Of a stretch of DNA of 64,000 bases, positions 9,805 through 37,917 are shown piece after piece. Under the pieces are notes generated by a model, which was not told where the DNA came from, did no database searches, and was given only the letters and a program-made list of their open reading frames with translations. The stretch is from Mytilus galloprovincialis (Eukaryota > Mollusca > Bivalvia > Mytilida > Mytilidae), in contig NC_134843.1 in assembly GCF_965363235.1 (NCBI RefSeq), positions 43,347,035-43,411,034 of the forward strand, given 5' to 3'. Made by a program: the position numbers and the translations under genes. The stretch's first letter is position 1. Each line of letters begins with the position of its first letter.

Positions 9805-11400
9805 TATCTATCAAAGAGGGTAAAGTTCCAGACGATTGGAAAAATGCTATAGTATCACCGATATTTAAGAAAGGGAAAAAACTGAAACCGGGTAATTATA
9901 GAACTGTAAGCTTAACATCAGTGGTATGTAAGATACAAGGATGTGAATCCATTATAAGAGACAATATTATGAAGTTTATTCTCACAAACAATCTTTTTAC
10001 TAGTAGTCAATATGGTTTCTGTCCGGTAGATCATGTGTTACTCAACTCCTTGAGGTTCTAGATGAGTGGTCAGAATTTATTGATAGTGGTTTTCCACTGG
10101 ACTCGATATTCCTTGATTTTTTCCAAGGCGTTTGATACCATGCCACATCAGCGTTTATTTTTGAAACTTGAAAAACTTGGAATAAAGGACTGCATTTTGA
10201 ATTGGATAAAGAGTTTTCCATTGTTTTCTATCTGGGCGTAAGCAATGTGTTCATATAAATAACACAACATCAACATGGTCAGACGTGGTGAGCGATGTAC
10301 CTCTGGGAAGTGTTTTAGGACCAGTTCTTTTCTTAACATTTATAAATAATGATCTTCCTGATGTAGTAGAGGGTATAGTGAAAGTTTTTGCTGATGATTG
10401 TAAAGTTTATTCTAAAGTCTCATCAGATTATGAGCGATGTAAGTTACAGGAAAATTTGGACAGATTATGTGAATGGTCAGATATGTGGAAATTAAAATTT
10501 AATGCTGCTAAATGTAGAGTATTGCATATTAATCCTGACAATGACCTGCAATACCGTTATACCATGTTGGATGAATCCGGAAATTTTATTGCATTATCAA
10601 CAGTGAAAGAAGAAAAGGATCTGGCAGTAACTTTCAGGTCTAATTTGAAATTTGAAAAACATATAAGTGATATTTATAACAAAGCGCAGAGAGTATTGTC
10701 TCTGATTAATCATTCTTTTGATTACATGGATCAAGATATGTTTTTTACTATTTATAAATCAATAGTGCGTCCGCTGCTAGAATATGCGACATGTGTCTGG
10801 TCACTGTATCTTAAAAAAGACATCCGCAAACTGGAATCTGTACAAAGAAGGGCCACAAAACTGGTAAAAAATATTTGTCATCTTAATTATGAAGACAGGC
10901 TACCTTCATTGGGTTTGCCAAACTTGGAATATCGTAGGGATAGGAATGATATGATACATGTCTACAAAGCTTTGCATGGTATAGATGACATCGACTGGAT
11001 GAGCCTATTTACTTTAGCACCATCTAATAATACTAGAGGTCACTCATTAAAACTTTTTAAAAAACAGTGTAAGACCACACATAGACTAAATACTTTTTCA
11101 ATTAGAGTAGTGGATCAGTGGAATAACCTGTCAGATTTAACAGTGACGGCAAAGACTCTGAACAATTTTAAAAGTCTGCATTAAATGGCAAAAATTGGAA
11201 CCCATATAAATTCATATGTTCGTGTTAGTGTTTCAGCTGCACACACCTAAATAAGTATTTTTTGATAAGTGTAATATATTATATATAAATATATTATCAG
11301 ATGAGAAATCATATACGACAATCCAAGATGAGGGGTCAGTAGAAGCCTTTGGCTTATGTAACGACCCGAAGATAAAGGTATAGGTATAAGGTATATATTT
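9805..11400 (+). mobile_element. Decayed non-LTR retrotransposon, reverse-transcriptase part (CR1/Jockey-like group)
   Basis: Translation from about 9814 reads EGKVPDDWKNAIVSPIFKKG and GNYRTVSLTSVVCKI, then breaks into several frames (IFLDF, AFDTMPHQR) before a clean open frame at 10285-11184. That frame has a degraded VPQGSVLGP motif (VPLGSVLGP), the catalytic FADD box and a C-terminal RRATKLV domain. Upstream endonuclease sequence is missing. The tail (about 11310-11400) ends in short GGTATA-type repeats. Frameshifts and stops make it nonfunctional; the clade assignment is approximate. Confidence 0.85.
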
Positions 11401-14900: not shown

Positions 14901-17900
14901 AAATTTTGAGGACGGAGCCACTGATTTGTGCCTAGATTACATAATACGTTGTGTTTGGTGCAATATGCTACGGAATCGAGCAATTGGTGTCTTCTTTATT
15001 ATATGGCAGATATAACAACAAAATAGATAAAGACTAAAAGTAGTTTTATTCAAAATTCAACACAAATGTAATAAATTACACCTTTTACCTGTGAATTACC
15101 TGAAAATGCAGGTAACCTGATAAAAACTTTCCTAAAATAACTGCCTAACATTACAGTTCATACTATCCTCAGCATTTTTCACGCTATAACTTTCTCTGTA
15201 TCTCTTACAATAAAAAAGATACAGCAGTCTGAAAAGGAATATTCTGTTCTAGTGAATGAACACCAAAAAAATACAGCAGCAGCAGTTATTTTTCTATTTT
15301 TTTGTGTAGCGTTGAAAGGGTTAACTGTTCTAGAGTTATACATTGTACTCCTTAATAAACTGGAAAAATTGCAAAATTTTGTGTTTCCATTCTCTAACTT
15401 AAGTTGCCTCAACCAAATGTTATGAAACTTATACCCAATACTTATTACAACAAAACTCAGATCAAGTACAAATTTGGGTAGCATTACTTTTATCATTATT
15501 GAGTTATGTCCGTTTTTAATGTTGAATGCAAGCAGGGGTATCATCTGTGTCCATGGGGAACATATTCATCATTTGATTAATTTTATGGTGTATTTTTTTA
15601 CGTTGAGTTAAGAGTCAACATTCTGACTTAAACAGTGCTGAATGAAAATTGACAAAAAATCTTTTGAGTAGGCTATTATTAAGACTAAAAAGAAGGGTAG
15701 ATCATCAGGAAACTGAACCTTTCATATATTTTTATTTGCCCTAACAGTATATTTATATAACTTCAAGTAAATAAAAATTACTTGTACAAGTAGTACTCCT
15801 GACTGCATAAAGAGAATAAATGCTATTACCTACATCTAAATTACAGAAGAAGATGAGAAACTATTTTTTGCATAGTTAACCTTTGTTTCGACAAAATGGT
15901 GTACTGTAGAAATTATTGCTACATGTACATGCTTTTAAATATCACAAAAAAGTAAAAACTGAAATACTTAACAGGATTTTGTACTTTACTCAATTTAAGG
16001 TAAATAAAGGCAACAGTAGTATACCGCTGTCCAAAACTCGTAAATACATGGACAAAAAACAAAATCAGGGTAACAAACTAAAACTGAGGGAAACACATTA
16101 AATATAAGAGGAGAACAACAACCCAACATTAAAATGTAACACACACAGATAAATGATAGATCAACTATTTTAAGTATTGATCAATAAACTTAAGTGAAAA
16201 TTGAAATTCCAATAGAATGATATTTTCTGTAAGATATCTCTAAGTTGTCAGTTTTAATGATTTCTAAAGTTAAGTAAGTTTAGAGAGATTTATATACATC
16301 AAATATATATACATGTAGCATAAAGTTAATCAATAGTACTTTTAAAGTTTAAAAAAATAATAAAGGTCACCATTTATACATCTGTTTCTTTACATTCAAG
16401 AAAGAGTCTGCAATTCTGTTCACCAGGGAAAAAAAGTCATGAATATTTCAGCATTTAAAAGTTACGATTGAAAAAGAGGTCATGAAAACAAGCACATTTT
16501 TTTATTTACGTTATGGTGAACTGCAAAAAAAAAAGAAGATACAGTTGTGTTCAAATTTTATAACCTGCGATGTATTTTTTTTTTTAACATTTTAGGCTGA
16601 TAAATCTTCTTCTAAAAATCCAAGTATAAAAAGAAAAAGTGATGCTGCTTATGAAAATGGAGATTATGACAAAAGAAGGCGAGAGGAACCAAAAGGAATT
16701 ACTGATGAAGAAAGAGAAAAAATATTGGAAATGTTGGACAATGAACCAGAGGTACAAATAACAGCTTATTCTTGCCATGTTTTGTATACATTTGTAGATA
16801 AGTTTGAATGACATAACTTGAGTTTGAGTTACTTCCCTTGGCCACCATAAATGGATAAAGGGTTAATTTTCTTCTTTGACTAACCAAACTGAAACTTGCA
16901 ATACACTGACAAGATATCTATAGTAGTTTTAACATGATTACACATTATACCCTGTCATAATTGTTTTTATACGACCGCAAAAATTTTAATTTTTCGTCGT
17001 ATATTGCTATCACGTTGGCGTCGTCGTCCTGCGTCGTCTTGCGTCGTCGTCGTCGTCCGAATACTTTTAGTTTTCGCACTCTAACTTTAGTAAAAGTGAA
17101 TAGAAATCAATGAAATTTTAACACTAGGTTTATGACCACAAAAGGAAGGTTTGGATTGATTTTGGGAGTTTTGGTCCCAACATTTTAGGAATTAGGGGCC
17201 AAAAAGGGCCCAAATAAGCATTTTCTTGGTTTTCGCACTATAACTTTAGTTTAAGTGAATAGAAATCTATGAAATTTTGACACAAGGTTTATGACCACAA
17301 AAGGAAGGTTGGGATTGATTTTGGGAGTTATGGTTCCTACAGTTTAGGAATTAGGGGCCAAAAAAGGGCCTAAATAAGCATTATTCTTGGTTTTCGCACA
17401 ATAACTTTAGTATAAGTAAATAGAAATCTATGAAATTTAAACACAAGGTTTATGACCATAAAAGGAAGGTTGGGTTTGATTTTGGGAGTTTTGGTCCCAA
17501 CAGTTTAGGAATAAGGGGCCCAAAGGGTCCAAAATTGAACTTTGTGTGATTTCATCAAAAATTGAATAATTGGGGTTCTTTGATATGCCGAATCTAACTG
17601 TGTATGTAGATTCTTAATTTTTGGTCCCGTTTTCAAATTGGTCTACATTAAGGTCAAAAGGGTCCAAAATTAAACTTAGTTTGATTTTAACAAAAATTGA
17701 ATCCTTGGGGTTCTTTGATATGCTGAATCTAAAAATGTACTCAGATTTTTTATTATTGGCCCAGTTTTCAAGTTGGTCCAAATCGGGGTCCAAAATTAAA
17801 CTTTGTTTGATTTCATCAAAAATTGAATAATTGTGGTTCTTTGATATGCCAAATCTAACTGTGTAAGTAGATTCTTAATTTTTGGTCCCGTTATCAAATT

Positions 17901-20900
17901 GGTCTACATTAAAGTCCAAAGGGTCCAAAATTAAACTAAGTTTGATTTTAACAAAAATTGAATTCTTGGGCTTTTTTGATATGCTGAATCTAAACATGTA
18001 CTTAGATTTTTGATTATGGGCCCAGTTTTCAAGTTGGTTCAAATCAGGATCCAAAATTATTATATTAAGTATTGTGCAATAGCAAGAAATTTTCAATTGC
18101 ACAGTATTCAGCAATAGCAAGAAATCTTCAATTGCACAGTATTGTGCAATAGCAAGAAATTTTCAATTGCACAGTATTGCGCAATAGCAAGAAATCTTCA
18201 ATTGCACAGTATTGTGCAATAGCAAATATTTTCAATTACTCAGTATTGCACAATAGCAAGAAATATCTAATTGCAATTTCAATTGGAGTTATCTTTCTTT
18301 GTCCAGAATAGTAGTTGAATCAACTTAAATCTTTTTTTTATACAATATATATAATTAATATTTCAATTGGAGTTATCTTTCTTTGTCCAGAATAGTAGTT
18401 GAATCAACTTAAATCATTGTTTTATACAATATACAATGTATATTCACTTTTTCTACCAACTGATAAATTAAAACAATCTTTACCATTCAGTGATAACAAG
18501 CACTTTATTTTACATTTCAATATTTTATGATGTATTTAAATGAGTAGTTATTGTTGCAAACTCCATTAGAAATTTGAATTGAGATCAGTTTTGGAAAAAG
18601 GGAAAGGGGGATGTGAAAACAAATTGGGGTGGGGGGTTAAATTTTTCTCATTTCAGATTTCATAAATAAAAAGAAAATTTCTTCAAACATTTTTTTGAGA
18701 GGATTAATATTCAACAGCATAGTGAATTGCTCAAAGGCAAAAAAAATATTTTAAGTTCATTAGACCACATTCATTCTGTGTCAGAAACCTATGCTGTGTC
18801 AACTATTTAATCACAATCCAAATTTAGAGCTGAATCCAGCTTGAATGTTGTGTCCATACTTGCCCCAACCGTTCAGGGTTCAACCTCTGCGGTCGTATAA
18901 AGCTGCGCCCTGCGGAGCATCTGGTTTACCAATTTTACAGCTGAAGAATTCTTACATCTTCTTGGTACATGTAACACTTAAATTTGTTCTGATATTACTT
19001 CCTACATGACCTAACATATATATTTTGTGTTATTCATAAACCTCTTTTGTTCTGAATGCAGCGTATCAATGAGGTTTTAACTTCAGCATTAAACAAAATG
19101 TCTTCATACCAGATGTAGATATCATGTGTCACTGAAAATGCAAAAGAAAACAAACATGGGTCACTGAAAATGTTAAAAAAAGCATGGATCAATGAAAATA
19201 TTTTTTAAAAATGTCCACAGTTGTACAGCATCATGTATTTAGAGATAAATGGTTGAAATTTTAGCTCACCTGGCCCAAAGGGCCAAGTGAGCTTTTCCCA
19301 TCACTTGGCATCCGTCGTCTGTCGTCGTTAACTTTTACAAAAATCTTCTCCTCTGAAACTACTGGGTTAAATTTAACCAAACTTAGCCACAATCATTATT
19401 AGGGTATCTAGTTTAAAAAATGTGTCAGTGACCCAGCCAACCAATTAACATGGCTGCCATGGCTAAAAATAGAACACAGGGGTAAAATGTAGACTTTGGC
19501 TTATAACTCTGAAACCAAAGCATTTAGAGCAAATCTGACCAGAGGTTAACATGTTTATCAAGTCAATATCTATCTGCCATGAAATTTTCAGATGAATAGG
19601 ACAACTGGTTGTTGGGTTGCTGCCCCCAATTGTTAATTTTTAAAGAAATTTTGCCATTTTTGGTTATTATCTTGAATACTATTATAGATAAGACTTAAAC
19701 TGTAAACAACAAAAATGTTCAGCAAAGTAAAATCTAAAAATAAGTCAACATGACCAAAGGAGTTATTGCCCTTTATAACAATTTTCATTAATTTGGTAAA
19801 TTTTTGTAAATTTTTACAAAATATTTTCCTCTGTATCTATTGGGCTAGGTTTAATATAGATAGAGAAAATTGTAAGTAGCAAGAATGTTCAGTAAAGTAA
19901 GATCTACAAACACATCACCATCACCAAAACACAATTTTGTCATGACTCCATCTGTGTCCTTTCAGGCTTTGTTTAAATAGCACATAGACCAAGATGAGCG
20001 ACACAGGCTCTTTAGAGCCTCTAGTTTTATTATGCCCCACCTACGATAGTAGAGAGGCATTATGTTTTCTAGTCTGTTCGTTCTTTCGTCTATCCCCCTT
20101 CAGGTTAAAGTTTTTGGTCAAGGTAGTTTTTGATGAAGTTGAAGTCCAACCAATTTCAAACTTAGCACACATGTTCCCTATGATATGATCTTTCTAATTT
20201 TAATGCCAAATTAGAGTTTTGACCCCAATTTCACGGTCTGCTGAACATAGAAAATGATAGTGCAACTTTCAGGTTTAAGTTTTTGGTTAAATTTTTTAGT
20301 CAAGGTAGTTTTTGATGAAGTTGAAGTCCAATCAACTTGAAACTTATTACACATGTTCCCTATGATATGAACATTCTTATTTTAATGCCAAATAAGATTT
20401 TTCCACCAATTTCACGGTCCACTGAACATAGAAATTGACAGTACGAGTGGGGCATCCGTGTACTGTGGACACCTTCTTGTTTAATTTTGGCTACTGTTGG
20501 GTTTTTTTTTCAGACAGAAGCTTTGGATGAGACGAACTTAAAGAAGATGTTACTGAACTTTGAGAAAAGAGTTTATAAAAACCAAGAACAGAGAATCAAA
20601 TATCCAGATTTACCAGAGAAGTATGTTAAGAAAAGTAATTTCAGCAAGGCACATCATTGATATCATATACAGTTGTTAAAAAACAGAGCACTCACTACAT
20701 GAGTATGTCTTTAGTTGAAAAAAACAAGAATCAAGAATCAATGCAAGAAAGTTAAAAGGATAAAAATCCCTGTCGAAACCCACTGAAAAACGGCCCAATT
20801 GCTATTTGTAAAATATGATAAAAACAGAGCAATTAATATGCAGGTTTTAAAAGAACTTTTAGAATTTTAATCAAAGTACACTTTTTCTATAAGCTTGTTT

Positions 20901-23900
20901 GCAGACTTTGGTAATACATGTACAACTAAATCAAGTATCAATGAAAAATAAATCTTAAATTATGACTTCTGTGGATTCCTTTATTTTCCTGGGTATCAAT
21001 TTTCGTAAATTGACGAAAAAATAGCATTTTCATGGATATTGAATTTCATAGTTTTTAAAATCTCTGCATACAAAGCATAATAGAAAATTTATATTTCGTT
21101 GAACATTTAAATTTGTGGTTAACCTTTACTGAGGAAATCCACGAAAATCGGTATCCAGAGAATATTAATGATTCCTCAGTATATGAAATGACTTAAGTTA
21201 TTCAAAAGGTTGTATATCTAATATTTTCTTAATAAACCTGTCTTTTTTTCTTTTTCTTTTGATAGATTTATGGATTCAGAAATAGAAGTAAATGAAATTA
21301 TCCAACAGATGCATGTTATTGCTACAGCACCAGACTTATATCACATCTTAGTAGATTTGAACACAGTACAGTCACTTTTACAGTTGTTAGCACATGAAAA
21401 TACTGATATCCTTTATAAAGCAAATAAATTTCAGAAATGGAAATGAGAAAATAAATAATTTAGATTAAAACCTTGATACAATCATGCTGTGTGGGTGCAC
21501 TCGTCTCCCTTTTGTGATTGACAAGAATTGTCAGTTTACCTATCAAAGGTCAGTAGTTTTCTCCAGACTTCCTCCATCTATAAATTATAAAATCTGACCG
21601 CCACAAATAGCTTAAAAGTGGTGTTAAAACACCAACGATCAATCAACTGATATAATAATGGTTTATAATAGCAGGATTTTGTTTTTTTAATTTTAATGTA
21701 AGTCTTAATTGTTGATATTGGTGAGTCATTGATTTTTTTGTGTCTGTCCTTCACAATGGGGATCAGGTAACACTTGAAGTCTTTGTAAATATATTTCCTT
21801 AATGTTACCTACATGTATCAATAGCTGTGGTGGATCTAATACAAGAATTAACAGATGTAGATACATTAAATGAAAGTGAAGAAGGTGCAACTGCAGTAGT
21901 AGATAGTTTGGTAAGTATAAGGAAAATATCAGCTTTTATCCTACGAGGGGTTTTGTCAAGGGGTCTATGTTCTGCTCGAACTGCTCCCAAAGATTCCAAA
22001 AGACGTTATAGGATATTTGATATTTCCAAATAGTTTATGGTTCAAAATTGAGGTCAAATTCTCATATATTTTTGATTATTTAAAAAAAAAAAAATAGAGA
22101 TCTAACCTAACTATGGCCATCTTTCTTTTATAAATTGAATTAATGAACATTGATACCAAAAATTTTTGAATTTGCAAATGTAATAATATTTAAGCTTTGT
22201 ATAAAACATCTACTTCTCTCTTTTACCAAAAAAAAATAATTTGTAAAAGATTTTGTATTATTTTATTTTACAGTTAGAAAAGCAAGTTGTTGCAATTTTA
22301 GTGCAGAACTTAGAAAGACTGGATGAAAATAATAAAGAAGAAGCTGATGGTGTACATAATACTTTATGTAGGTATAATTATGTAGTATCAAGTTACATAA
22401 CACTTTATGTAGGTATAATTATGTAGTATCAAGTTACATACTACTTTATGTAGGTATAATTATGTAGTACATGTAACAAGTTACATAATACTTTATGTTG
22501 GTATAATTATGTAGTATCAAGTTACATAATACTTTATGTAGTATCAAGTTACATAATACTTTATGTAGGTATAGTTATGAAGTATCAAGTTACATAATAC
22601 TTTATGTAGGTATACTTATGTAGTATCAATTTACATAATACTTTATGTAGGTATACTTATGTAGTATCAATTTACATAATACTTTATGTAGGTATAATTA
22701 TGTAGTATCAAGTTACATAATACTTTATGTAGGTATAATTATGTAGTACATGTATCAAGTTACATACTACTTTATGTAGGTATAATTATGTAGTATCAAG
22801 TTACATAATACTTTATGTAGGTATAATTATGTAGTACATGTAACAAGTTACATAATACTTTATGTTGGTATAATTATGTAGTATCAAGTTACATAATACT
22901 TTATGTAGGTATAATTATATAGTATCAAGTTCCATAATACTTTATGTAGGTATACTTATGTAGTATCAATTTACATAATACTTTATGTAGGTATAATTAT
23001 GTAGTATCAAGTTACATAATACTTTATGTAGGTATACTTATGTAGTATAAATTTACATAATACTTTATGTAGGTATAATTATGTAGTATCAATTTGCATA
23101 ATACTTTATGTAGGTATAATTATGTAGTATCAAGTTACATAATACTTTATATAGGTATACTTATGTAGTATCAATTTACATAATACTTTATGTAGGTATA
23201 ATTATGTAGTATAAAGTTAGATAACAAAAATACTGAACTCCAAGGAAAATTCGAAACGGAAAGCCTGTAATCAAAATAAAAATTTCAAACACATCAAACA
23301 AATGGATAACAACTGTCATCATATTTCTGATTTTGTACAGGCATTTTATTATGTAAAAAATTGTGGATTAAACCTGGTTTTATAGCTAGCTAAACCTCTC
23401 ACTTATCCCAAATAATCAACAGCAATACAAAACAAATACTTGAAGGCGCTCAAAGTAAATAATTTCTATCAATATTTGTATATGTATTTTAAAATTTACA
23501 TGTTGAATTATCTGTTGCAGTTGAAGATAAACTCCTCACAGATACCAGGATTAAAATTTCAATTTGAGCCAGACGTGGGTTTTTACTACAAAAAACTGAT
23601 CAGTGACGCTCAAATAAATAAGTTTAAAAGGCCAAATAAAGAACAAAGTTGAAGAGCATTGAGGACCAAAATTTTTCATACATTTCATAAGAACCTATCT
23701 GTATTTCACAAATATAGAAATGCATTTTATGTTTTTGTTACTCAACTGTTTGGGAACATTTACTTTTCAATGTGTGTTTTAAATCTTAAGCATGTCATTT
23801 GTCTTTTTTTTTTTATAGTCAGATGATTTGATTGTCTTTTTTTCAGCAATCATAGAAAATGTGACAGAATTCCGACCCGAATGTTGTACAGAGGCAGCAC

Positions 23901-26900
23901 AGCAAGGTTTAATGGTCTGGTTACTAAAGAGAATCAAAGTAAGAAACTATTCAGACACATCTGCACCCATTTGTAATATGATATCTCTAAAGACAACCAG
24001 TCATTTCAGAATGTAAAGGCCTATGGGTAATTTCATTGTTTGTACTCTAAAATGAAAAATAACATCATGTCATTGGTTGAATTTCTGTTGATTGGGATGT
24101 TTTTAACCAATCATAAGGTGTACATTTTTGAATATTGCGCAGAATGCATTAGATTCTGGAACTGCAAATTACTCTCCTTAGCTTGCTTTTTATAGTTGGT
24201 CATCTTTAAATGCTTTATATAACAATAAATAATCACCTTTACATGTGTAAAAAAAATATTTAAAAAGTTTGTCACAGTAAGACAGTCTTGATTACAATGA
24301 AATTTATACATGGTAATAGTAAGTCCATTTAGTATCTGAGAGACGTCAACATATTATTCAGTAATTTTAGTAATATATTTAACTTACAACACATTTCAGC
24401 ATGTGTACTCTATTTGATCAAACATAATAAACTCAATTTATTACAAAATTAATACAAAATGTTTATTATTTTCAGTCCAAAATACCATTTGATGCAAATA
24501 AATTGTACGCCAGTGAAATTTTAGCTATTATCCTGCAGAACAGTGATGGTTTGTATTATAATGAATTTTATATGTTATTCAAGTCTAAGACAGGGTATAA
24601 AATGTGTCTTTCCAAGTCTTAGGGAATATGAATAAATATACAATATATGAACATTGTCAGAAAATATAAAATTTATTTGTATGAGGCTTGCTGAGCTGTT
24701 TTCCTGTTTTGTAGCAGGTACAATTAAATATATATTTTCTGACAATGTAATTATATTGTTGTTATCCTGCAATTTACACCCAACACTTGAAACATTAGTT
24801 ATTAAAATTCTAAACATTATTTCTCATTTTTTAAAAGAAATCAACATAATTTAAACGTGAACCGTGAAAAGGACCAAAAAATGAACTGTTACACAAAAAG
24901 AAATATCCACATTACAGCGTGCTCAACATGGAAACATTCTATTATATATGATACTGTTTTTACATCTCCAGTGCTCAGCATTCTCAACATATTTGAAAAT
25001 GTTATTTATTTTTCTTCTTCAGAAAATAGATTACTAATTGGTGAATATGATGGTATTGATGTTTTGTTGCAACAGTTAGCTGTAAGTTGGTTTTCTTCAT
25101 TTATATATTTCTTAATATTCTTTAATGTTTGAATAGATTGCTTTAACAAGTATATATAAAATTGATCAATGGAAATGGAGATAACAACACGACAAAAGAG
25201 CAGGAAACCATTGAAGGCCACCAATGGGTCTTCAACACAGCTAGAAAATTCTGCTTCTGCTGGCCTCTCAACAAAAATGTGTACTAGGTCAATAAAAATT
25301 AACTTCACACTAAACTCCAAAACATAAAAAATTACAAAAAAGATACAAGACTAACAAAAGACCAGAGGCTCCTGACTTTGGACAGGTGCAAAAACGAGGT
25401 GGGGTTACATTTGTTTGGTGAAATATCAGCCCTCCCCTTATACCTCTAGCCACGAGGTGCTATTCAACAACAAACAAATCTTTTAGAATGGTAAAGATTA
25501 GTTTAAAAGAATACAGACTAGAAGTGTTTAATGTTACAGGATCCATCGCTTTTTAACTGTAGGAATGTTTTAATGAAAATCATACTATGTTGACTGAATG
25601 TAAAATCGTACAACACGTCTACATTTTCTGCATTTAAAATTTTGACTCTGAATTAAATGTTGTGAAACATGTCTAACTGTTAAGCTATAAGCTGATGGCA
25701 CATTGTTAGCATATTTAAGTGCAAGATATATATATATATATAGATATGATTTGAAGATTTTTATTTCTTTTTTAGTCATACAAAAGAAATGATCCTTCAA
25801 ATAAAGAAGAATTGGAATACATGGAAAATCTGTTTGATTCAATGTGCTCATGTTTAATGAGGACAGAAAATCGGGCAAAGTTTTTACGTGGAGAAGGTTT
25901 GCAGTTGATGAATCTCATGTTAAGGTGAGTTTTATTTCCTATTTCTCAAACATTAGAAACTATGATATGGGTCATCTGGAGACCATGTTTGGCTTTCAAT
26001 TTTCAGTGAACTGCTTTTTATGCCCCACCTACGATAGTAGAGGGGCAGTATGTTTTCTAGTCTGTGCGTCCGTTCGTCCGTCTTACAACATGATTTAGCA
26101 AATATGCGGTGTTGAACACCAACTTACAACAAACAAATGGTTTAATTTAGGTAAAAGTTAGAAAGTTTCACCTATTTTTCTTACTTCATTGACTTCAGAG
26201 TTTATATCTAGGTCAGTATAAAACGCAGGCTTATCTAATCTGCACTCATGTTCATTTACAAAGAAAGTTACCATCAAGGTTTTCTTCCTTTTCTGACTAT
26301 TATTAATTTGTGTAGTCTAAATATCAGGTACTGTAAATTATAGGATCATCTAAACTTGCACTAAGTTGCTTGTAAGAAAGGAGAATTGATGTATATATCT
26401 TCCATACAGATACTAAATGCAATTCAAAGACATATGGAATCAGTATACAGGAAAAAAGTAGGTCAGTTTGATCTACTTTTAAAGCTTCATAGTTCATACA
26501 CCCTGATTTAAGTGTACTATTTTAGGATTTTAATAAATGTATTCAGAGGTCACCACACCAGGCAATATGAGAGACATTAATGCCCTAAGATTCCAGACTT
26601 CGCTTTATTGAAGCTCCAAGGAGTAGTTTATGTTGCCCACAATTTTCAGTAAAATCACCAAACGTTGCATGCTTTTTGATAATTCTGTATCTGTTAAGCA
26701 AATGCCGACTGGGTTGAAAAGGCTTTGAGAATTTGATCAATGTATTTATTTAAAATTCCTTCCGACTACAAGGCAAGGCAATAATATTTAAACAGTTGTC
26801 CAGCAAAAGACTGCCACAATTAACAAGGCAGTACAGATTCTGACAAATTTAGTTAAAAAAATCATTAATGCAGTTCTCATTGAAATTCTGAAGTGAGATG

Positions 26901-29900
26901 ACCCCTGATTTTTTCAATTTTTTTTTTACACTATATGATAGGAGAGGCAACAATGAGTTGGATAAGCTGACATTTGAATTAAAGTTTTATTGACTTTCCT
27001 GAATTTTTACATAACATCTTATACCTTTGTTATAAACAAGTAAAAGGAGAGGCAAAAGATACCAAAGGAAAATTCAAATTCATAAGTCTAAAAAAAAACT
27101 GACAACGCCATGGCTAAAAAAGAAAAAAACAAACAGACAAACAATACAGAAAACTAAACACTGAGCAACACCAACCCTAACAAAATCTTTGGGTGATCCG
27201 CAAGTGTAATACAAGTGTAATACTTGCTTTACTTTTCACATCTTGGTAATCTATGAATATAATCTTCAGATTTTAGTTTTATTAAATCTATTTCAGAGAA
27301 AAGAAATTGTCAAGAAATAGTGCAATAAAAGTTTTAAATCATGCAATGTCAGGGCCAGAGGGGGCAGATAACTCACAAAAATTTGTTGACATTCTTGGTT
27401 TACGAACAATCTTTCCTTTGTTTATGAAAACACCAAAACAGGCAAAAGCAGGACCATCTTCAGAAGAACTGGAAGGTATTTTTTTCTTAAAAATAAAAAA
27501 ATCTTATTTGTAAGTATTACCTATATAGTCAAAATGCTAACTTAAAAAAAATCAATATATATGTTTATTTTTTGTACAAAAAATTTATGTAATCATACTT
27601 CCATGGATAAATTTTCAATTTCAAATAAATCACTAATTTTAATTTTAAAAAAAGAACATGAGTTGCATATTTTTTTGTTTTATTTTTTTAAGTGAAAATG
27701 TAGATGCAAAGGAAGCTTTCATGTCAAAATGGCAAAGTAAAGATTTGTTATGGGTTTTTTTCAGAACACATAACATCTATAGTTGCATCAATGATGAAAA
27801 ATTGTCAGGCTACACAAAGGCAAAGACTGGTCAATAAATATACAGAAAATGATCATGAAAAGGTATTCAACAAATGTTTTAAGTGTGCTGTCTCATAAAA
27901 ATTTTATGGTTCTCTGTTATCTAAATAGATTTACCAATTTTCTGTACAAATCTGTGTTGATTCATACACCAATTTTCTTTACAGTAATTTAAATGTAGAA
28001 GTTGAATATATAGACGAGAATTACCGGTAATAATATTTCTGAGACTCAGGAGTTATCTCCCATATCCTAGATTTGAATAACTATAAAATGGCATTACCGG
28101 TAGATGATTATGAATGATACATTGAATATAATAACATGAATAATGAAGTTATTTTTAGCTTGATTTTTATTTTAGAGCATAATTTTAGCTTCGTGTTTTC
28201 TGATTTTATGGGATTTCCATGCCTTTATACAGATTTTTCTATTTTCAGCATGATGGGTAGCCATAATTCTAACTATTTTTGATAATTTTTTGTCATCTTT
28301 AAAATTAATTTGCAATTATTTAGATTTAAAAAAAAAATGTGCATAGTATTGTAAAATCATTGTACTAATCAATTTTTTCCTTGTTCGCAGGTAGAAAGAT
28401 TGCTAGAACTCCATTTCAAATACCTTGATAAAGTAAGGACAGTAGATGATCAGATTGAAAGAGAAAAACAGGTAAACAACTGGAATTTCTGAAACATTTT
28501 TCATGCATAATGTTATTATACATGTACTTATTGAGATTTAAAAAAATTATTATTGACAAATAATTTAATTTTTGATGTAACACGTCTTCTGATTGGCTGA
28601 CGTTATTTTGTTATCAGCCCATAGACATAATTTAGTCATGTGACCGTGACGTCATCAAAGTTTTTTCATGATTTTTTACGGTTTAAAATGCAATTTAGAA
28701 TTAAATTATAAGAAATGACTAATATTTTTTCTGTCTATTCGAAATAACATAAAAAATGTGATGCACACTGTTAAATAATCCGCTATGCGCATTATTCAGT
28801 GTGCACCACATTTTTATGTTATTTCGAAAGACAGAAAAATGTTACAGTCATTCCTTAAGTAATAGAAGTAATAACTGTGGTATACAAATGTCTGAAATAT
28901 TATTTTACTTGCAATAAAGTTCCTCAATTTGCAATGTTTCTACTATTGTGAAAACAGATCAATATACTTTTTGAAAAACCTTCATTGTAAAGTCTGAATT
29001 AATGAATTTGGTATTAAGATAGTTATTTGAACATGGAGAATGAAGTTATTGGCTCATTTGTGTTGTGAAGGAATTTCAGATATCCTTTTGCATCAATCAT
29101 TTTTGAAACAGATTTATGTTTATTAGGTTTTAAGTATAACCTTTTTTTCTGTTTACAGAGAATGAAGAACCGAGGAGAGGAAATTGAAGATGATGATGAG
29201 TTTTATATCAGACGTTTAGAAGCTGGTTTATTTACATTACAGCTGGTTGATTACATCATGCTTGAGATATGTGCCACAGGACCTTCATCAGTATGTTTAA
29301 ATAACAGTAATGTAGTTTGATAAAAGAGTAAAAACTGGTTCAGAAGCTTATTGGAAGGTATTTGTTTGAACCAGTGTTCCGGCAAAATTTTGCAACTGAT
29401 GGATAAATTTCACTCATTTGATATTTTTTTGTGAAAAGCTGGATCTGGTGATTTTATGCTTTGAAAATTTCGTCCATGTTTAGTCAATAAAATGAACAAG
29501 AAATAAATCCAAATAATTATGATGTCCATGAATGTAGTCCGAGGTTACTCTGACGTCCAAAGTCTGTTTTGCCGCGCAAAACAAAACAGCCGTTGGACAT
29601 CAGAGTAATCTCGGACTACCACGAACGCTACTTTGATTTTTACTTTGACAGTGTCCTATAACAAATAAGAAAACTTTAAAAGTCAAATTGTATTATGGCC
29701 TCAGCAGAAATATCTCTTCAATAAATTAAATTATTAGAATTAACAGCAACCCTGGCTGGATGTCAAAAATATAATTTGAGTCACATTAAGCACCACCAGG
29801 AGTCTGTCAGGTGTCATCAGGTCTTCACAGACCACAGAAGAAATCTTGGTACTTGTTATGCTGTGAAAATATAAAAAAGAAGATGATTGCCAATGAGACA

Positions 29901-32900
29901 ACTGTCCACAAGAGACCAAAATGACACAGACATTAACAATTATAGGTCACCCTACGGCCTTCAACAATGAGCAAAGCCCATACCGCATAGTCAGCTATAA
30001 AAGGTCGAATCAGACAACCGGTTTTTGGGTTGCTGCCCCTGAATTGGCAATTTTAAGGAAATTATACCGTTTTTTGGCTATTGTCTTGAATATTATTATA
30101 GATAGAGATAAACTGTAAACATAAAAATAATGTTCAGCAAAGTAAGATCTACAAATAAGTTAATATGACTAAAATGGTCAGTTGACCCCTTTAGGAGTTT
30201 TTGCCCTTTATAGTCATTTTTTACCAATTTTTCGTAATTTTTTCTTATCTTTTACAAAAATCTTCTCTTCTAAAACTACTGGTCCAAATTTAACCATACT
30301 TGGCTATAATCATCATTGGGGTATCTAGTTTAAAAAATTTGTGATCTGACCCTGCCAACCAACCAAGATGGCTGCCATGGCCAAAAATAGAACATAGGGG
30401 TACAATGTAGATTTTGGCTTATAACTCTGAAACCAAAGCATGAAGAGCAATTCAGACATGGGGTTAAATTGTTTTGTAAGACAAGATCTATCTGCCGTGA
30501 AATTTTCAGATGAATCCCACAACTGGTTGTTGGGTTGCTGCCCCTGAATTGGAAATTTTTAAGGAAATTTTGCTGTTTTTGGTTATTATCTTGAATATTA
30601 TAATAGATAAAAATAAACTGTAAACAGCAATAATGTTCAGAATAGAAAGATCCACAAAAATGTCAACATGACGAAAAAGGTCAGGTGACCCCTTAAGGAG
30701 TTATTGCCCTTTATAGTCAATTTTTTTAATAATTTTGTAAATTTTAACAAAATATTTTCCTCTGTAACTAATGGGCCAAGTTCATTTTAAATTGAGATAT
30801 CATAATTGTAAGAAGCAAGAATGTTCAGTAAAGTAAGATCTACAAACACATCACCATCACCAAAACACAATTTTGTCATGAATCCATCTGTGTCCTTTGT
30901 TTAATATGCACATAGACCAAGGTGAGCGACACAGGCTCTTAAGAGCTTCTAGTTAGCCATGGCGGCCATCTTGGTTGGTTGGCCAAGTCACCGGACACAT
31001 TTTTTTAAACTAGATACCCCAATGATGATTGTGGCCAAGTTTGGTTAAATTTGACCCAGTAGTTTCAGAAGAGAAGATTTTTAAAAAGTTAACGACGACG
31101 TACGCCTAACCCTCTTTATACGACCGCAAAATTTTAATTTTTCGTCGTATATTGCTATCACGTTGGCGTCGTCGTCGTCCGGCGTCCTGCGTCGTCGTCC
31201 GAATACTTTTAGTTTTCGCACTCTAACTTTAGTAAAAGTAAATAGAAATCTATGAAATTTTAACACAAGGTTTATGACCACAAAAGGAAGGTTGGGATTG
31301 ATTTTGGGAGTTTTAGTTCCAACAGTTTAGGAATTAGGGGCCAAAAAAGGGCCCAAATAAGCATTATTCTTGGTTTTCACACAATAACTTTAGTATTAGT
31401 AAATAGAAATCAATGAAATTTAAACACAAGGTTTATGACCACAAAAGGAAGGTTGGGATTGATTTTGGGAGTTTTGGTCCCAACATTTTAGGAATTAGGG
31501 GCCAAAAAGGGCCCAAATAAGCATTTTCTTGGTTTTCGCACTATAACTTTAGTTTAAGTAAATGGAAATCTATGAAATTTTGACACAAGGTTTATGACCA
31601 CAAAAGGAAGGTTGAGATTGATTTTGGGAGTTGAGGTCTGAACAGTTTAGGAATTAGGGGCCAAAAAGGGGCCCAAATAAGCCTTTTTTTTTTGGTTTTT
31701 GCACCATAACTTTAGTATAAGTAAATAGAAATCTATGAAATTTAAACACAAGGTTTATGACCATAAAAGGAAGGTTGGGATTGATTTTGGGAGTTTTGGT
31801 CCCCACAGTTTAGGAATAAGGGGCCCAAAGGGTCCAAAATTGAACTTTGTTTGATTTCGTCAAAAATTGAATAATTGGGGTTCTTTGATATGCCAAATCT
31901 AACTGTGCATGTAGATTCTTAATTTTTAGTCCCGGTTACAAATTGGTCTACATTAAGGTCCAAAGGGTCCAAAATTAAACTTTGTTTGATTTTGACAAAA
32001 ATTGAATCTTTGGGGTTCTTTGATATGCTGAATCTAACTGTGTATGTAGATTCTTAATTTTTGGTCTCGTTTTCAAATTGGTCAACATAAAGGTCCAAAG
32101 GGTCCAAAATTAAACTTAGCTTGATTTTATTAAAAATTGAATTCTTGGGCTTCTTTGATATGCTGAATCTAAACATGTACTTAGATTTTTTATTATGGGC
32201 CCAGTTTTCAAGTTGGTCCAAATCAGGATCCAAAATTATTATATTAAGTATTGTGCAATAGCAAGAAATTTTCAATTGCAGAGTATTCAGCAATAGCAAG
32301 AAATCTTCAATTGCACAGTATTGAGCAATAGCAAATATTTTCAATTGCACAGTATTGCGCAATAGCAAGAAATATCTAATTGCACAATATTGTGCAATAG
32401 CAAGAAATTTTCAATTGATTGGAGTTATCTTTCTTTGTCCAGAATAGTAGTTGAATCAACTTAAATCATTGTTTTATACAATATACAATGTATATTTTTA
32501 TACGACCGCAAAAATTTTAATTTTTTGGTCGTATATTGCTATCACGTTGGCGTCGTCGTCGTCGTCGTCCGAATACTTTTAGTTTTCGCACTCTAACTTT
32601 AGTAAAAGTGAATAGAAATCAATGAAATTTTAACACAAGGTTTATGACCACAAAAGGAAGGTTGGGATTGATTTTGGGAGTTTTGGTCCCAACATTTTAG
32701 GAATTAGGGGCCAAAAAGGGCCCAAATAAGCATTTTCTTGGTTTTCGCACTATAACTTTAGTTTAAGTGAATAGAAATCTATGAAATTTTGACACAAGGT
32801 TTATGACCACAAAAGGAAGGTTGGGATTGATTTTGGGGGTTTTGGTTCCAACAGTTTAGGAATTAAGGGCCAAAAAAGGGCCCAAATAAGCATTATTCTT

Positions 32901-35900
32901 GGTTTTCACACAATAACTTTAGTATAAGTAAATAGAAATCAATGAAATTTTAGCACAAGGTTTATGACCACAAAAGGAAGGTTGGGATTGATTTTTGGAG
33001 TTGAGGTCCTAACAGTTTAGGAATAAGGGGCCCAAAGGGTCCAAAATTGAACTTTGTGTGATTTCATCAAAAATTGAATAATTGGGGTTCTTTGATATGC
33101 TGAATCTAACTATGTATGTAGATTCTTAATTTTTGGTCCCGTTTTCAAATTGGTCTACATTAAGGTCCAAAGGGTCCAAAATTAAACTTAGTTTGATTTT
33201 AACAAAAATTGAATCCTTGGGGTTCTTTGATATGCTGAATTTAAAAATGTACTTAGATTTTTAATTATTGGCCTAGTTTTCAAGTTGGTCCAAATGGGGG
33301 TCCAAAATTAAACTTTGTTTGATTTCATCAAAAATTGAATAAATGGGTTCTTTGATATGCCAAATCTAACTGTGTATGTAGATTCTTAATTTTTGGTCCA
33401 GTTTTCAAATTGGTCTACATTAAGGTCCAAAGGGTCCAAAATTAAACTAAGTTTGATTTTAACAAAAATTAAATTCTTGGGCTTATTTGATATGCTTTAT
33501 CTAAATATGTACTTTGATTTTTGATTATGGGCCCAGTTTTCAAGTTGGTCCAAATCAGGATTCCATATCAAGTATTGTGCAATAGCAAGAAATTTTCAAT
33601 TGCACAGTATTGCACAATAGCAAGAAATATCTAATTGCACAATATTGTGCAATAGCAATTAATTTTCAATTGGAGTTATCTTTCTTTGTATAGAATAGTA
33701 GTTGATAATATATGTTGGAAATTTGACAGACATGACTATGATGTCATTTTCTATTTTTATTTGCCAATAACTTTATGTAAATAACTTCATTGGAAATTTG
33801 CCAATATAAAATGTTGCTGATGAAGCTTTTTTTCCTTATCTTCTTATCTAAAATGTTTTTAGATAATGTATGTTGGAAATTTGCCAGACATGACTATGAT
33901 GTCATTTTCTATTTTTATTTGCCAATAACTTTATGTAAATAACTTCATTGGAAATTTGCCAATATAAAATGTTGCTGATGAAGTTTTTTTTATTGTTTTA
34001 TACAATAAGCAATGTATATTCACTTTTACTACCAACCAATCTTTACCATTCAGTGATAACAAGCACTTTATTTTACATTTTAATATTTTATGATGTATTT
34101 AAAAGAGTAGTTATTGTTGCAAACTCCATTAGAAATTTGAATTGATATCAGTTTTGGAAAAAGGGAAACGGGGATGTGAAAAAAGGGGGGGGGGGTTTAA
34201 ATTTTTCTCATTTCAGATTTCATAAATAAAAAGAAAATTTCTTCAAACATTTTTTTGAGAGGATTAATATTCAACAGCATAGTGAATTGCTCAAAGGCAA
34301 AAAAAAAACTTTTAAGTTCATTAGACCACATTCATTCTCTGTCAGAAACCTATGCTGTGTCAACTATTTAATTTTAGATTTAAAAAGTTTGAAGAAGAAA
34401 TCTTAAATTGATTTGTAAAATCTTGACATTTGTTTTGTGTAAAAAAAACCATGTAATGTCAAAAATTTGATCACAATCCAAATTCAGAGCTGTATCACGC
34501 TTGAATGTTTTGTCCATACTTTCCCCAACTGTTCAGGGTTCAACCTCTGCGGTCGTATAAAGCTGCGCCCTGCGGAGCACCTGGTTACTTTTACTACCAA
34601 CTGATAAATTAAAACAATCTTTACCATTCAGTGATAACAAGCACTTTTTTTACATTTTAATATTTTATGATGTATTTAAATGAGTAGTTATTGCTATTTC
34701 TTCAATTTTTTTGAGAGGATTAATATTCAACAGCATAGTGAATTGCTCAAAGGCAAAACAAACATTTTAAGTTCATTAGACCACATTCATTCTGTGTCAG
34801 AAAACTATGCTGTGTCAACTATTTAATCACAGTCCAAATTTAGAGCTGAATCAAGCTTGAAATTGTGTCCATACTTGCCCCAACCGTTCAGGGTTCAACC
34901 TCTGCGGTTGTATAAAGCTGCGCCCTTCGGAGCATCTGGTTCTAACCTGGGACAGTAGTATAACAGTACAACATAAGAACGAACTATAAAAATCAGTTGA
35001 AAGAGGCTTAACTCATCAGATGGACACAAAAAAGATTATTTAACAATCCCTCCTGAACAAAAGATGCTACATATAGAACATACCCAAAAATGCCTGTGCA
35101 TCTACATTTGAAAATATGACTTCTACTCAATAAATCAACCACATAAATCTGGAGTTAATGGTTATTCCTTGATGTTCAAACATAATGTTTCTCGCTACAT
35201 TGAAGACCTGTTGGTGACCTTCTGCTGTTGTTTTTTTCTATGGTCGGGTTGTTGTCTCTTTGGCACATTCCCCATTTCCATTCTCAATTTTATATAATGT
35301 GATTGATTACTTGAAAAGTGTTCCCTTGTTCTTAAAACTGTTGTATCTTGCAGGTAAAACAAAGAGTGATGCAGATTTTAAATATGAGAGGAGGTTCTAT
35401 AAAGTCAATCAGAAGTATAATGAGAGGTTAGTTTAATTGAATAAAAGTTAACATTTCAGTGTGTGGTGAAAAACATTTTTTTGTAAATATCAGTCTGACA
35501 GTGGTTAAAAATATATTGTGAAACTTAAAGAATTAGAAATAAGAAGATGTTGTATGAGTGCCAATGAGACAACTCTCCATCCAAGTCACAATGTGTAAAA
35601 AGTAAACAATTATAGGTCAAAGTATGGCCATCAACATAGAGCCTTGGTTCTCGCTGAACAGCAAGCTATAAAGGGCCCAAAAAAGACTAGTGTAAATCAT
35701 TTTAAATAGGAAAAATGTATGTTTACCAATATTAAGATATACACCTTTATTATTTTCATGAGTGCCACAGTAATTTCAAGCACACTGTCACTGTAGTCTG
35801 TGTGTAAACAGATTTGTGGAGTAATTATCAAACACACAGCAGTCCATTAATGCATATAAAACATCGCATGTATATAAATAGAAAATAAGATACAGTATAG

Positions 35901-36489
35901 TATGATTACCAATGAGACAACTACCCATCAGAGACCAAATGATTTAGAATTTAACAACTATGACTCTGCAGCCTTCAACAATGAGCAAAACCCATACAGC
36001 ATAACAAGCTATAAAAGGCCAAAACATGTCAAAATGTAAAAAATTTCAGATGAGAAACCTACAATCTAATCTATGTACAAAGAATTAAATATGATATACA
36101 GCAACAAACAACCACTGAATTACAGGCTCCTTACTTTAGTTGAGATTTACGTGAATTTAATACTTTATTGACTCAGTGGAGGGAAAAAAACATCCACCAT
36201 TTTCTACATAGAAAATGTCTGTACCAAGTCAGGAATATGACAAATGTTATCCATCCGTTTGATGTGTTTTAGCTTTTAATTTTGCCATTTGATTAGGGTC
36301 TTTCCCTTTTAAATTTAATTTAATAGGATAACAATGTGCTTATGTAGAAAATGGTGAATTAAACCTGGTTTTATAGCTAGCATTGATTTTTGTCTTCCAG
36401 AATATGCAGGAAATATTGGTGATGCAAAAGATCCAGAGGCCAAAGAACAGGAACAGGACAGAATATTACAACTAGTGGATAAATTCTGA
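11945..36489 (+). CDS. CTNNBL1: Beta-catenin-like protein 1, complete, 16 coding exons
   Basis: Exons: 11945-11986, 16596-16751, 20514-20620, 21266-21405, 21813-21910, 22274-22367, 23847-23938, 24476-24548, 25023-25081, 25776-25924, 27297-27475, 27765-27862, 28391-28471, 29159-29290, 35354-35426, 36401-36489. They sum to 1662 nt, or 553 residues plus stop; human CTNNBL1 has 563. Exon 1 encodes MDVGELLSKALSHK, sharing the human start MDVGELL. Exon 2 carries a bipartite nuclear signal, KRKSDAAYENGDYDKRRR (residues 26-43). Armadillo-type helices follow, with conserved blocks such as FEKRVYKNQEQRIK, DVSIAVVDL, GEYDGIDVLLQQL, DILGLRTIFPLFMK and ending LQLVDKF. CTNNBL1 is a nuclear ARM-repeat protein of the CDC5L/PRP19 spliceosomal complex that binds nuclear signals of partners. 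Fifteen introns join in phase; one is AT-AC. The two largest introns, 1 and 14, are repeat-filled. Confidence 0.96.
12683..13786. mobile_element. hAT-like non-autonomous TIR element, about 1.1 kb
   Basis: Ends are CAGGGGTGGGGAAATATT and, inverted, CAGGGGTGTGGAAATGCT, with ACTTGTCC motifs repeated just inside both ends. CAGGGGTG ends are typical of hAT transposons. ATTTC flanks both sides, shorter than the usual 8-bp hAT duplication. No transposase is encoded. Confidence 0.7.
13802..14025 (-). mobile_element. TIR element (MITE), ACTGTGGATTCATT family, copy 2
   Basis: TACTGTGGATTCATTATTAT at the left and ATGAATCCACAGTA at the right form terminal inverted repeats. The interior runs opposite to copy 1. 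It is in CTNNBL1 intron 1, directly next to the hAT-like element that ends at 13786. Confidence 0.8.
14043..14199 (-). other. Orphan candidate exon within CTNNBL1 intron 1, opposite strand
   Basis: A 157-base stretch is open in one frame (52 residues, from DNKCQLRATVV through to FTCAIYRDP). It is flanked by an AACAG acceptor and a CCAG|GTAGCT donor, and has two cysteines and hydroxylated/hydrophobic alternation like an extracellular domain exon. I found no partner exons on that strand, so it may be a relic or part of a nested gene. A TIR element (13802-14025) lies right beside the donor. Confidence 0.3.
16969..18925 (+). repeat. TTATACGACCGC family, full-length-like copy (about 1.95 kb)
   Basis: Starts TTATACGACCGCAAAAATTT with a CGTCGT microsatellite and ends GCGGTCGTATAAAGCTGCGC then GGAGCATCTGG; the TTTATACGACCGC ends are inverted. 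Inside are tandem blocks of about 115 bp (ACCACAAAAGGAAGGTTGGG), about 130 bp (GGTTCTTTGATATGC) and about 34 bp (ATTGTGCAATAGCAAGAAAT). Located in CTNNBL1 intron 2. Confidence 0.85.
19262..20024 (+). repeat. GCTCACCTGGCCC family copy
   Basis: Opens with the hairpin GCTCACCTGGCCCAAAGGGC then CAAGTGAGC, and closes with GAGCGACACAGGCTCTTTAG. Contains repeated TTGGGTTGCTGCCCC and GTAAGATCTACAAA blocks. A second copy without the hairpin is at 30003-30956, followed by an inverted fragment to 31110. Confidence 0.75.
20025..20482 (+). repeat. GCCCC-family copy in CTNNBL1 intron 2
   Basis: Begins TATGCCCCACCTACGATAGT and ends GTGTACTGTGGACACCTTCT. It stops about 30 bases before exon 3 and directly follows a GCTCACC-family element. 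Confidence 0.8.
20965..21182 (+). mobile_element. TIR element (MITE), ACTGTGGATTCATT family, copy 3 (diverged)
   Basis: CTGTGGATTCCTTTATTTTC and the inverse AATGATTCCTCAGTA form imperfect TIRs. The interior retains CTCTGCATACAAAGCATAA, as in copy 1. Located in CTNNBL1 intron 3. Confidence 0.7.
21406..21812 (+). other. CTNNBL1: U12-type AT-AC intron of CTNNBL1 (intron 4)
   Basis: The intron starts ATATCCTTT, the consensus for minor-spliceosome AT-AC donors. It has TTCCTTAAT at 21795-21803, a near-perfect U12 branch-site match, and ends in AC about 10 bases later. Joining ACTG to ATGTATCA gives NTDVSIAVVDL, identical to the human protein here. No GT donor lies near the exon 4 end, and the nearest AG acceptor would delete conserved residues. 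The intron is 407 bp and contains a SINE copy in its middle. Confidence 0.93.
21478..21655 (+). mobile_element. SINE copy (5' truncated) inside the AT-AC intron
   Basis: Same family as 2545-2775, opposite orientation: TGTCAGTTTACCTATCAAAG, CTTCCTCCATC, CTGACCGCCACAAA and AGTGGTGTTAAAACACCAAC are followed by GATCAATCAACT. It makes up much of the 407-bp U12-type intron. Confidence 0.75.
22354..23220 (+). repeat. Minisatellite of about 41-bp units overlapping CTNNBL1 exon 6 donor
   Basis: About 21 head-to-tail copies of a roughly 41-bp unit, each holding ACATAATACTTTATGTAGGT or a close variant. The first unit covers the last 14 coding bases of exon 6 and its splice donor at 22368-22369; the rest lie in intron 6. 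One unit is shortened (around 22530-22550). Two variant marks (ATGTAACAAG and the TGTTGGTATA form) recur 367 bp apart, indicating a higher-order duplication inside the array. Confidence 0.95.
24651..24748. mobile_element. 98-bp TIR/foldback element
   Basis: ACATTGTCAGAAAATATA at the left is matched by its exact inverse at the right end; imperfect pairing continues inward. Located in CTNNBL1 intron 8. Confidence 0.65.
28709..28862. mobile_element. Foldback element with about 70-bp arms
   Basis: Arms include CTGTCTATTCGAAATAACAT and, inverted, ATGTTATTTCGAAAGACAG, flanking a short loop near ATCCGCTATGCGC. TGATGCACACTG pairs with CAGTGTGCACCA. Located in CTNNBL1 intron 13. Confidence 0.75.
29534..29619. 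mobile_element. Near-perfect 86-bp palindrome
   Basis: GTAGTCCGAGGTTACTCTGA at the left is mirrored by TCAGAGTAATCTCGGACTAC at the right around a GCCGCGCAAAAC centre. Located in CTNNBL1 intron 14; a MITE-like foldback. Confidence 0.75.
30003..31110. repeat. GCTCACC family copy plus inverted fragment
   Basis: The plus-strand copy (30003-30956) ends ACACAGGCTCTTAAGAGCTT. The next 150 bases are the same family reversed (GGCCATCTTGGTTGGTTGG, ACCCCAATGATGATTGTGG), up to GTTAACGACGACG. Confidence 0.7.
31117..34944 (+). repeat. Three adjoining TTATACGACCGC-family copies in CTNNBL1 intron 14
   Basis: A copy lacking its 3' end (31117-32496) runs straight into a near full-length copy (32497-34585), followed by a 3' fragment (34586-34944). 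A 150-bp direct duplication at about 33686-33990 (GGAAATTTGCCAGACATGAC-type units) lies inside the second. Confidence 0.8.
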
Positions 36490-36523
36490 AACCATTGACA
36501 AAAACCTTAAAAAAATAAGGATA

Positions 36524-36529
36524 AATAAA
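36524..36529 (+). terminator. Candidate poly(A) signal of CTNNBL1
   Basis: AATAAA lies 35 bases after the CTNNBL1 stop codon. Further copies occur downstream (around 36805 and 37243), so the real 3' end is undetermined. Confidence 0.4.
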
Positions 36530-37917
36530 TGTGTTAATCCAAGTCAAACACAAAAATAACAGTGACTTATGTCAATATGATGTATTGTTAAGAGTATATT
36601 TAAAATTGACAACATAAACTGTGATACTGTCAAATTTCTTAAACATTATTTGCAGTTCACAATTGGTGTATAGAGACATTCAAAATTAATCCACCTATGA
36701 GCTTTACATCTCAATATTATGAAAATATAAAAATTTAGTGGTATCAGCTGGCCATGTATGGTACATGTAGGTCAAATAACTTGTTATGGTTGTTAGTAGG
36801 TATCAATAAATCATGATAATGTATACTTGTTCTGGTATTATTTACGCCCAGTTTTAACAAATCAACTATAGTAATTTTATGTAAATGATGTAAACATTAG
36901 CATAGAACATGGTCTCTCTTTTTAAAATACATTGGGCAAACTTGCAACTGAACATTGCAGGTAGAATCTATGACCTACCTGATATTTTATGAGACTGTAT
37001 GTATTTATAAGATGTAGCAATAATTGAAGTTAGTTTCAGTTGGCATAGCCAAAGTAGGAGATGTGGTATGATTGCCAATGAGATCCACCAGAGTTCAAAT
37101 GAAGTGGATGTAAGCAATTATTAGTCACCATGCAGCCCTCAACAAAAAGTTCATGTCAGCAGTTGTGATACTGTAAATCTTATTTTTTTAGCTATCATTA
37201 TAATTTTGTTTATTTGGCACCCAAGACCTATTTAAACAAGAAATAAAGCATAAACAAAAAGTTGATTAAGTATAATTAAAAATTTTTAAAGAATATATTT
37301 TACTATGAATTTGTCTATTCTACATTGGCTAGAAGTATAAGTGGAGGGTTTAGATCTCACAAAATATGTTTAACCCTGCTGTATGTTTGCACCTGTCCCA
37401 AGTCTGGAGCATCTGACCTTATATATCTTGTATATTTTTTATGTCCCATTTATGGGCATTAGGTTTTTGGGTCTGTGTGTCTGTTTGTCCCGCTCTAGGT
37501 TACAGTTTTTGGTCAAGGTAGTTTTTGATGAAGTCCAATCAACTTGAAACTAAGTACACATGTTCCCTATGATATGATCTTTCAAATTTGAATGCCACAT
37601 TAGAGTTTTCAACCCAATTTCACGGTCCACTGAACATAGAAAATGATAGTGTGATTAGGGAATCAGTGTACTATGGACACATTCTTGTGAAATTTTGTTC
37701 ATTGACATATTTTGGACTTAAGTATGACATACATTTTCACAGAACTAGTATACGTTTTTGTTAAGGAGCCAGCTGAAGCCAGCCTCTGGGTGTAGGATTT
37801 TCTGTGTGTTGAAGACCCATTGGTGGCTTTCAACTTTTTTCATCTTTTTGGTCTGGTTGTTGTCTCTTTGACACAATCCTATTTCAATTCTCTTATGATC
37901 AATATTTTGTTCATGTT

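Follow-up and report, generated by a model that had tools for sequence, protein, structure and literature searches.

An intron in the mussel CTNNBL1 gene is almost certainly an ordinary AT-AC intron of the U12 type, and we infer that it is spliced as such in vivo. It lies in a 64,000-nt stretch of Mytilus galloprovincialis DNA (C6:43347035-43411034), all of which was analysed and which is called the window here. An earlier note on this DNA had proposed a minor-spliceosome AT-AC intron in CTNNBL1 on the strength of donor and branch motifs and an AC end at ideal spacing and the joined peptide NTDVSIAVVDL. That proposal is upheld, and the naming of the gene is borne out by strong matches to the Pfam family CTNNBL (PF08216, E 8.3e-180) and to human CTNNBL1 (E 4.2e-215). 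Coordinates of the intron, its motifs and the gene are collected in the table.

The exons were located with a human CTNNBL1 query, and the first homology-supported exon probably starts at 20514. A start-codon exon was not located in the window. Joined together, the 14 exons encode a 484-residue stretch that is matched over its whole length by human CTNNBL1 chains in the PDB, the E value above being the best of seven distinct PDB sequences, with the N-terminal part of the protein outside the match. Across the junction of interest, a 143-aa stretch aligns to human CTNNBL1 with an E value of 2.7e-64, without gaps there, and NTDVSIAVVDL is identical in the human protein. The Asp codon split by the intron aligns with human D156, a position derived from the 563-aa chain, to which the alignment has no gap. 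When a 77-aa junction query was run against the whole genome (1,384,861,812 bases, 331 contigs), neither a second nor a processed copy was seen, the only hits being the two window exons. CTNNBL1 relatives were not confirmed among 149 pattern stretches in viral_contigs and 167 in genome_contigs; as these are not eukaryote collections, the result has no bearing on the conservation of CTNNBL1.

Table. Positions of the AT-AC intron, its splicing signals and the surrounding CTNNBL1 exons in the window.
Feature	Position	Strand	Details
CTNNBL1 coding region, homology-supported	20523..36488	+	14 exons, 13 introns (12 GT-AG, 1 AT-AC)
Tentative upstream CTNNBL1 exon	16596-16751	+	assigned by eye
CTNNBL1 exon 5' of AT-AC intron	21266..21405	+	FMDSEIEV...AHENTD; ends AAT ACT G
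U12-type AT-AC intron of CTNNBL1	21406..21812	+	407 nt, phase 1
U12-type donor ATATCCTTT	21406..21414	+	0 mismatches to RTATCCTTT
U12-type branch site TTCCTTAAT	21795..21803	+	0 mismatches to TTCCTTRAY
3' splice site AC	21811..21812	+	read from sequence
CTNNBL1 exon 3' of AT-AC intron	21813..21910	+	VSIAVVDLIQEL...; opens AT GTA TCA ATA GCT

U12-type introns have the donor consensus RTATCCTTT and the branch consensus TTCCTTRAY. The CTNNBL1 intron opens with ATATCCTTT and closes with TTCCTTAATGTTACCTAC, and its branch A, either 21802 or 21801, sits 10-11 nt before the intron's final base. U12-type introns are defined by their donor and branch site, and the optimum distance from branch to 3' splice site is 11-13 nt (PMC3584512, excerpt), so the spacing is near-optimal, at the short edge of that range. 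The extract of PMC7367187 reports phase 0 to be under-represented among U12 introns.

The exact register of the junction is set by these motifs. An AT is common to the exon end and the exon start, and sliding the junction by +1 or +2 leaves the mRNA unchanged, so that AT-AC, TA-CA and AT-AT junctions give identical mRNA (3 of 14 shifts tested). Thus, the motifs rather than the protein fix the AT-AC termini, and the earlier note's statement that only this splice yields NTDVSIAVVDL is too strong. In so AT-rich a window, either motif alone has little meaning: RTATCCTTT is seen 7 times against 2.57 expected (7 or more in 1 of 100 shuffles), and TTCCTTRAY followed by YAC is seen 3 times against 2.06 expected (reached in 33 of 100 shuffles). 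Occurrence of both at a single junction fixed by homology is not expected by chance (p about 8e-9 under a first-order Markov null; about 3e-7 once multiplied for 13 introns with 3 slide positions each).

The AT-AC intron is the sole one of the 13 scored with no mismatch to either motif. The remaining 12 are all GT-AG and carry 2-6 mismatches to the U12 donor consensus, and the best branch-like site in their last 40 nt has one mismatch in one intron, two in another and 3-4 in the other ten. For alternative introns at the same place, the ranking covered GT/GC-AG pairs whose donor lies within 21280-21811 and scores 4 of 6 or better and whose acceptor lies no further than 21904, after removal of frame-shifting pairs, stop-holding pairs and weaker donors. 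Three open in-frame pairs were left. Only one of them (21386/21877) differs from the expected length by no more than 30 codons, and it loses 28 residues. None of the in-frame pairs at this donor score rebuilds the conserved protein, so the GT-AG intron yielding that protein, which the earlier note had named as the case against its reading, is found in 0 of 3 pairs.

It is accordingly very improbable that the main splice is a nearby GT-AG intron and that the AT-AC motif is a coincidence or one arm of a twintron, even though human CTNNBL1 is a reported twintron with a U2-type variant (PMC3564746, excerpt) and an external U2 intron (PMC8329584, excerpt). A minor twintron product may exist among the out-of-frame pairs and weaker donors. 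The intron might instead have AT-AC ends and be removed by the major spliceosome, as in the rare U2-type AT-AC class, but this is extremely improbable: the U12 donor and branch motifs are both exact, the stretch leading up to the AC lacks a polypyrimidine tract (last 35 nt, judged by eye), and the bases after the donor AT are unlike the U2 pattern. Introns of this class do exist, 85 major AT-AC or related subtypes being given for human data in the extract of PMC8280824.

The four snRNAs particular to the minor spliceosome are all encoded, as predicted genes, by the window's own genome. The genome was searched at the Rfam cut-off with only the best candidates scored, so the counts are lower bounds: at least four matches for U6atac (best 93.5 bits), at least four for U12 (best 118.1 bits), at least five for U11 (best 94.5 bits) and at least one for U4atac (82.9 bits). 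The same searches were positive in 0 of 14 control genomes. The window itself has no minor snRNA match at the Rfam gathering threshold. Among the matches listed, GTAAGGAA, complementary to TTCCTT, is present in 4/4 for U12, and AAAGGAGA, complementary to the donor, in 4/4 for U6atac. AAAAAGGGCC is found at the 5' end of three of the five U11 matches listed, and the 5' end is diverged in the other two. All five of these U11 matches map to one contig (C13), where four cluster in roughly 6 kb; both 5'-diverged matches belong to that group of four.

Free duplex energies were calculated for 14 introns, namely the 13 scored and the tentative upstream one. With U11, 7 of 13 other donors form a stronger duplex than the AT-AC intron donor, and with U12 the same is true for 2 of 13 other intron tails. 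With U6atac the AT-AC intron is strongest, by only 0.2 kcal/mol. Duplex energy was dropped as a discriminator of the AT-AC intron, given the stronger U11 and U12 duplexes elsewhere.

Introns of the U12 type are removed by the U11/U12 di-snRNP and then by U4atac/U6atac.U5. For the CTNNBL1 intron, taken as an ordinary U12-type AT-AC intron, U11 of the di-snRNP would bind ATATCCTTT and U12 would bind TTCCTTAAT, with U4atac/U6atac joining afterwards. The minor spliceosome would then cut out the 407 nt and rejoin the Asp codon of NTDVSIAVVDL. From the sequence, CTNNBL1 RNA is probably spliced at AT-AC in this way in the animal. If the intron is retained, 12 intron-coded residues are followed by an in-frame stop ending at 21446. 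Full-length protein is then impossible, and no productive CTNNBL1 mRNA would arise without the minor spliceosome.

The stop on retention would also suit a regulatory switch, in which a slow AT-AC intron would make CTNNBL1 a sensor linking minor-spliceosome capacity to the supply of the Prp19 complex. Normal levels of that complex depend on CTNNBL1 (PMC4538830, excerpt), and basal retention is relatively high for AT-AN minor introns (PMC8280824, excerpt). However, dependence on the minor spliceosome is shared by all genes that have a U12 intron and is not special to CTNNBL1, and a tandem U11-binding-like element is absent: TATCCTT occurs only at 21406 and 29080, about 7.7 kb apart (+ strand, 20401-36600). 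Such a switch is therefore unlikely, and the idea that CTNNBL1 output is coupled to splicing capacity is speculation. Enrichment for U12 introns is reported for RNA-processing genes as a group (PMC3584512 and PMC10639083, excerpts), although doubt has been raised about how strong the association is (PMC10639083, excerpt).

At the start of intron 22368-23846, two introns downstream of the AT-AC intron, lies a tandem array of a 41-bp unit (22353-23224, about 21 copies) that begins inside CTNNBL1 exon 22274-22367. The 41-bp unit comprises the last 15 nt of this exon together with the 5' splice site. Spanning that site, the 14-mer ACTTTATGTAGGTA is present 17 times on the window's + strand, always within the array and with the authentic donor counted. 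Splicing from any one of the 16 later donors would bring a stop 16-19 codons past the exon end. An 82-base array query gave 16 matches in the mussel's own genome, all at the 22353-23224 locus, in a search that passes over simple repeats and very frequent words. From these copies, part of the exon seems to have been multiplied locally along with its splice site. In our view this donor array is stranger than the AT-AC intron itself; the nearest match to donor-repeat arrays in a literature search was, by its title, unrelated. The slow AT-AC intron and the 17-fold donor array could together tune the amount of CTNNBL1, a Prp19-complex chaperone, to splicing capacity, but we consider this very unlikely.

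Further tandem repeats are present in the window as three composite arrays, apparently related to one another (17070-18433, 31212-33672 and 42505-43907), with units of about 159-163 and 126-135 bp, and in the first two also 35 bp. One of the three sits within CTNNBL1 intron 29291-35353. Outside CTNNBL1, the open frame at 10210-11184 contains the reverse transcriptase domain RVT_1 of Pfam (E 2.2e-09) and is probably a retroelement remnant. The 732-residue open frame at 5935-8133 (- strand) is acidic and serine-rich, with GP(A/T)SPVSD repeats and an 81-bp imperfect repeat, and has no Pfam match at E 0.001. An open frame at 46454-46825 (- strand), which we take to resemble part of a Rieske iron-sulfur protein, likewise has no Pfam match at this threshold.

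A U12 intron in CTNNBL1 is already known from vertebrates, and the mussel intron is another case, with nothing new in kind. In Janice et al. 2013 (PMC3564746), human CTNNBL1 is among the genes with a U12-type intron, and Table 1 there has it as one of 18 human twintrons, with a U12 variant given as 563 aa and a U2 variant as 376 aa. The arrangement of the human twintron is a U2 intron outside and a U12 intron inside (PMC8329584, excerpt). For the human U12 intron, the excerpt of PMC3564746 gives neither codon nor termini and that of PMC8329584 gives no codon, and the position of the intron is not derivable from the 376-aa length of the U2 variant. CTNNBL1 is absent from the main texts of PMC2831892, PMC7367187, PMC6717393, PMC10853781, PMC10639083 and PMC6865273, and CTNNBL, catenin and C20orf33 are absent from PMC2426677. 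The Arabidopsis gene is At3g02710, for which a U12 intron is not stated in the excerpt of PMC545797. Minor introns are relatively enriched in molluscs (Larue and Roy, PMC10639083, excerpt), and a literature search on the minor spliceosome in bivalves returned as its only match, by title, an ascidian genome.

The intron described here is possibly orthologous to the human CTNNBL1 U12 intron. Should the human intron prove to split the same codon, and should this animal be a protostome, the intron would have been retained from before the divergence of deuterostomes and protostomes, as has been reported for many such introns. The AT-AC intron of CTNNBL1 is in any case one more data point for minor-intron retention, and it matters for annotation, since CTNNBL1 would be broken at 21406-21812 by a gene finder that allows only GT-AG.

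Human CTNNBL1 is the closest known system, being the same gene and also having a U12-type intron (PMC3564746, excerpt), and its 563-aa U12 variant is as long as the PDB 7abi chain. Unlike the human twintron, the mussel locus has no in-frame U2-type alternative that keeps the protein (donor score at least 4 of 6). From the AT-AC (A-type) subclass of minor introns the CTNNBL1 intron differs in none of the features tested: the ATATCCTTT donor, the TTCCTTRAY branch and phase 1 are common to both, and the AC end fits as well when the junction is placed by the motifs.
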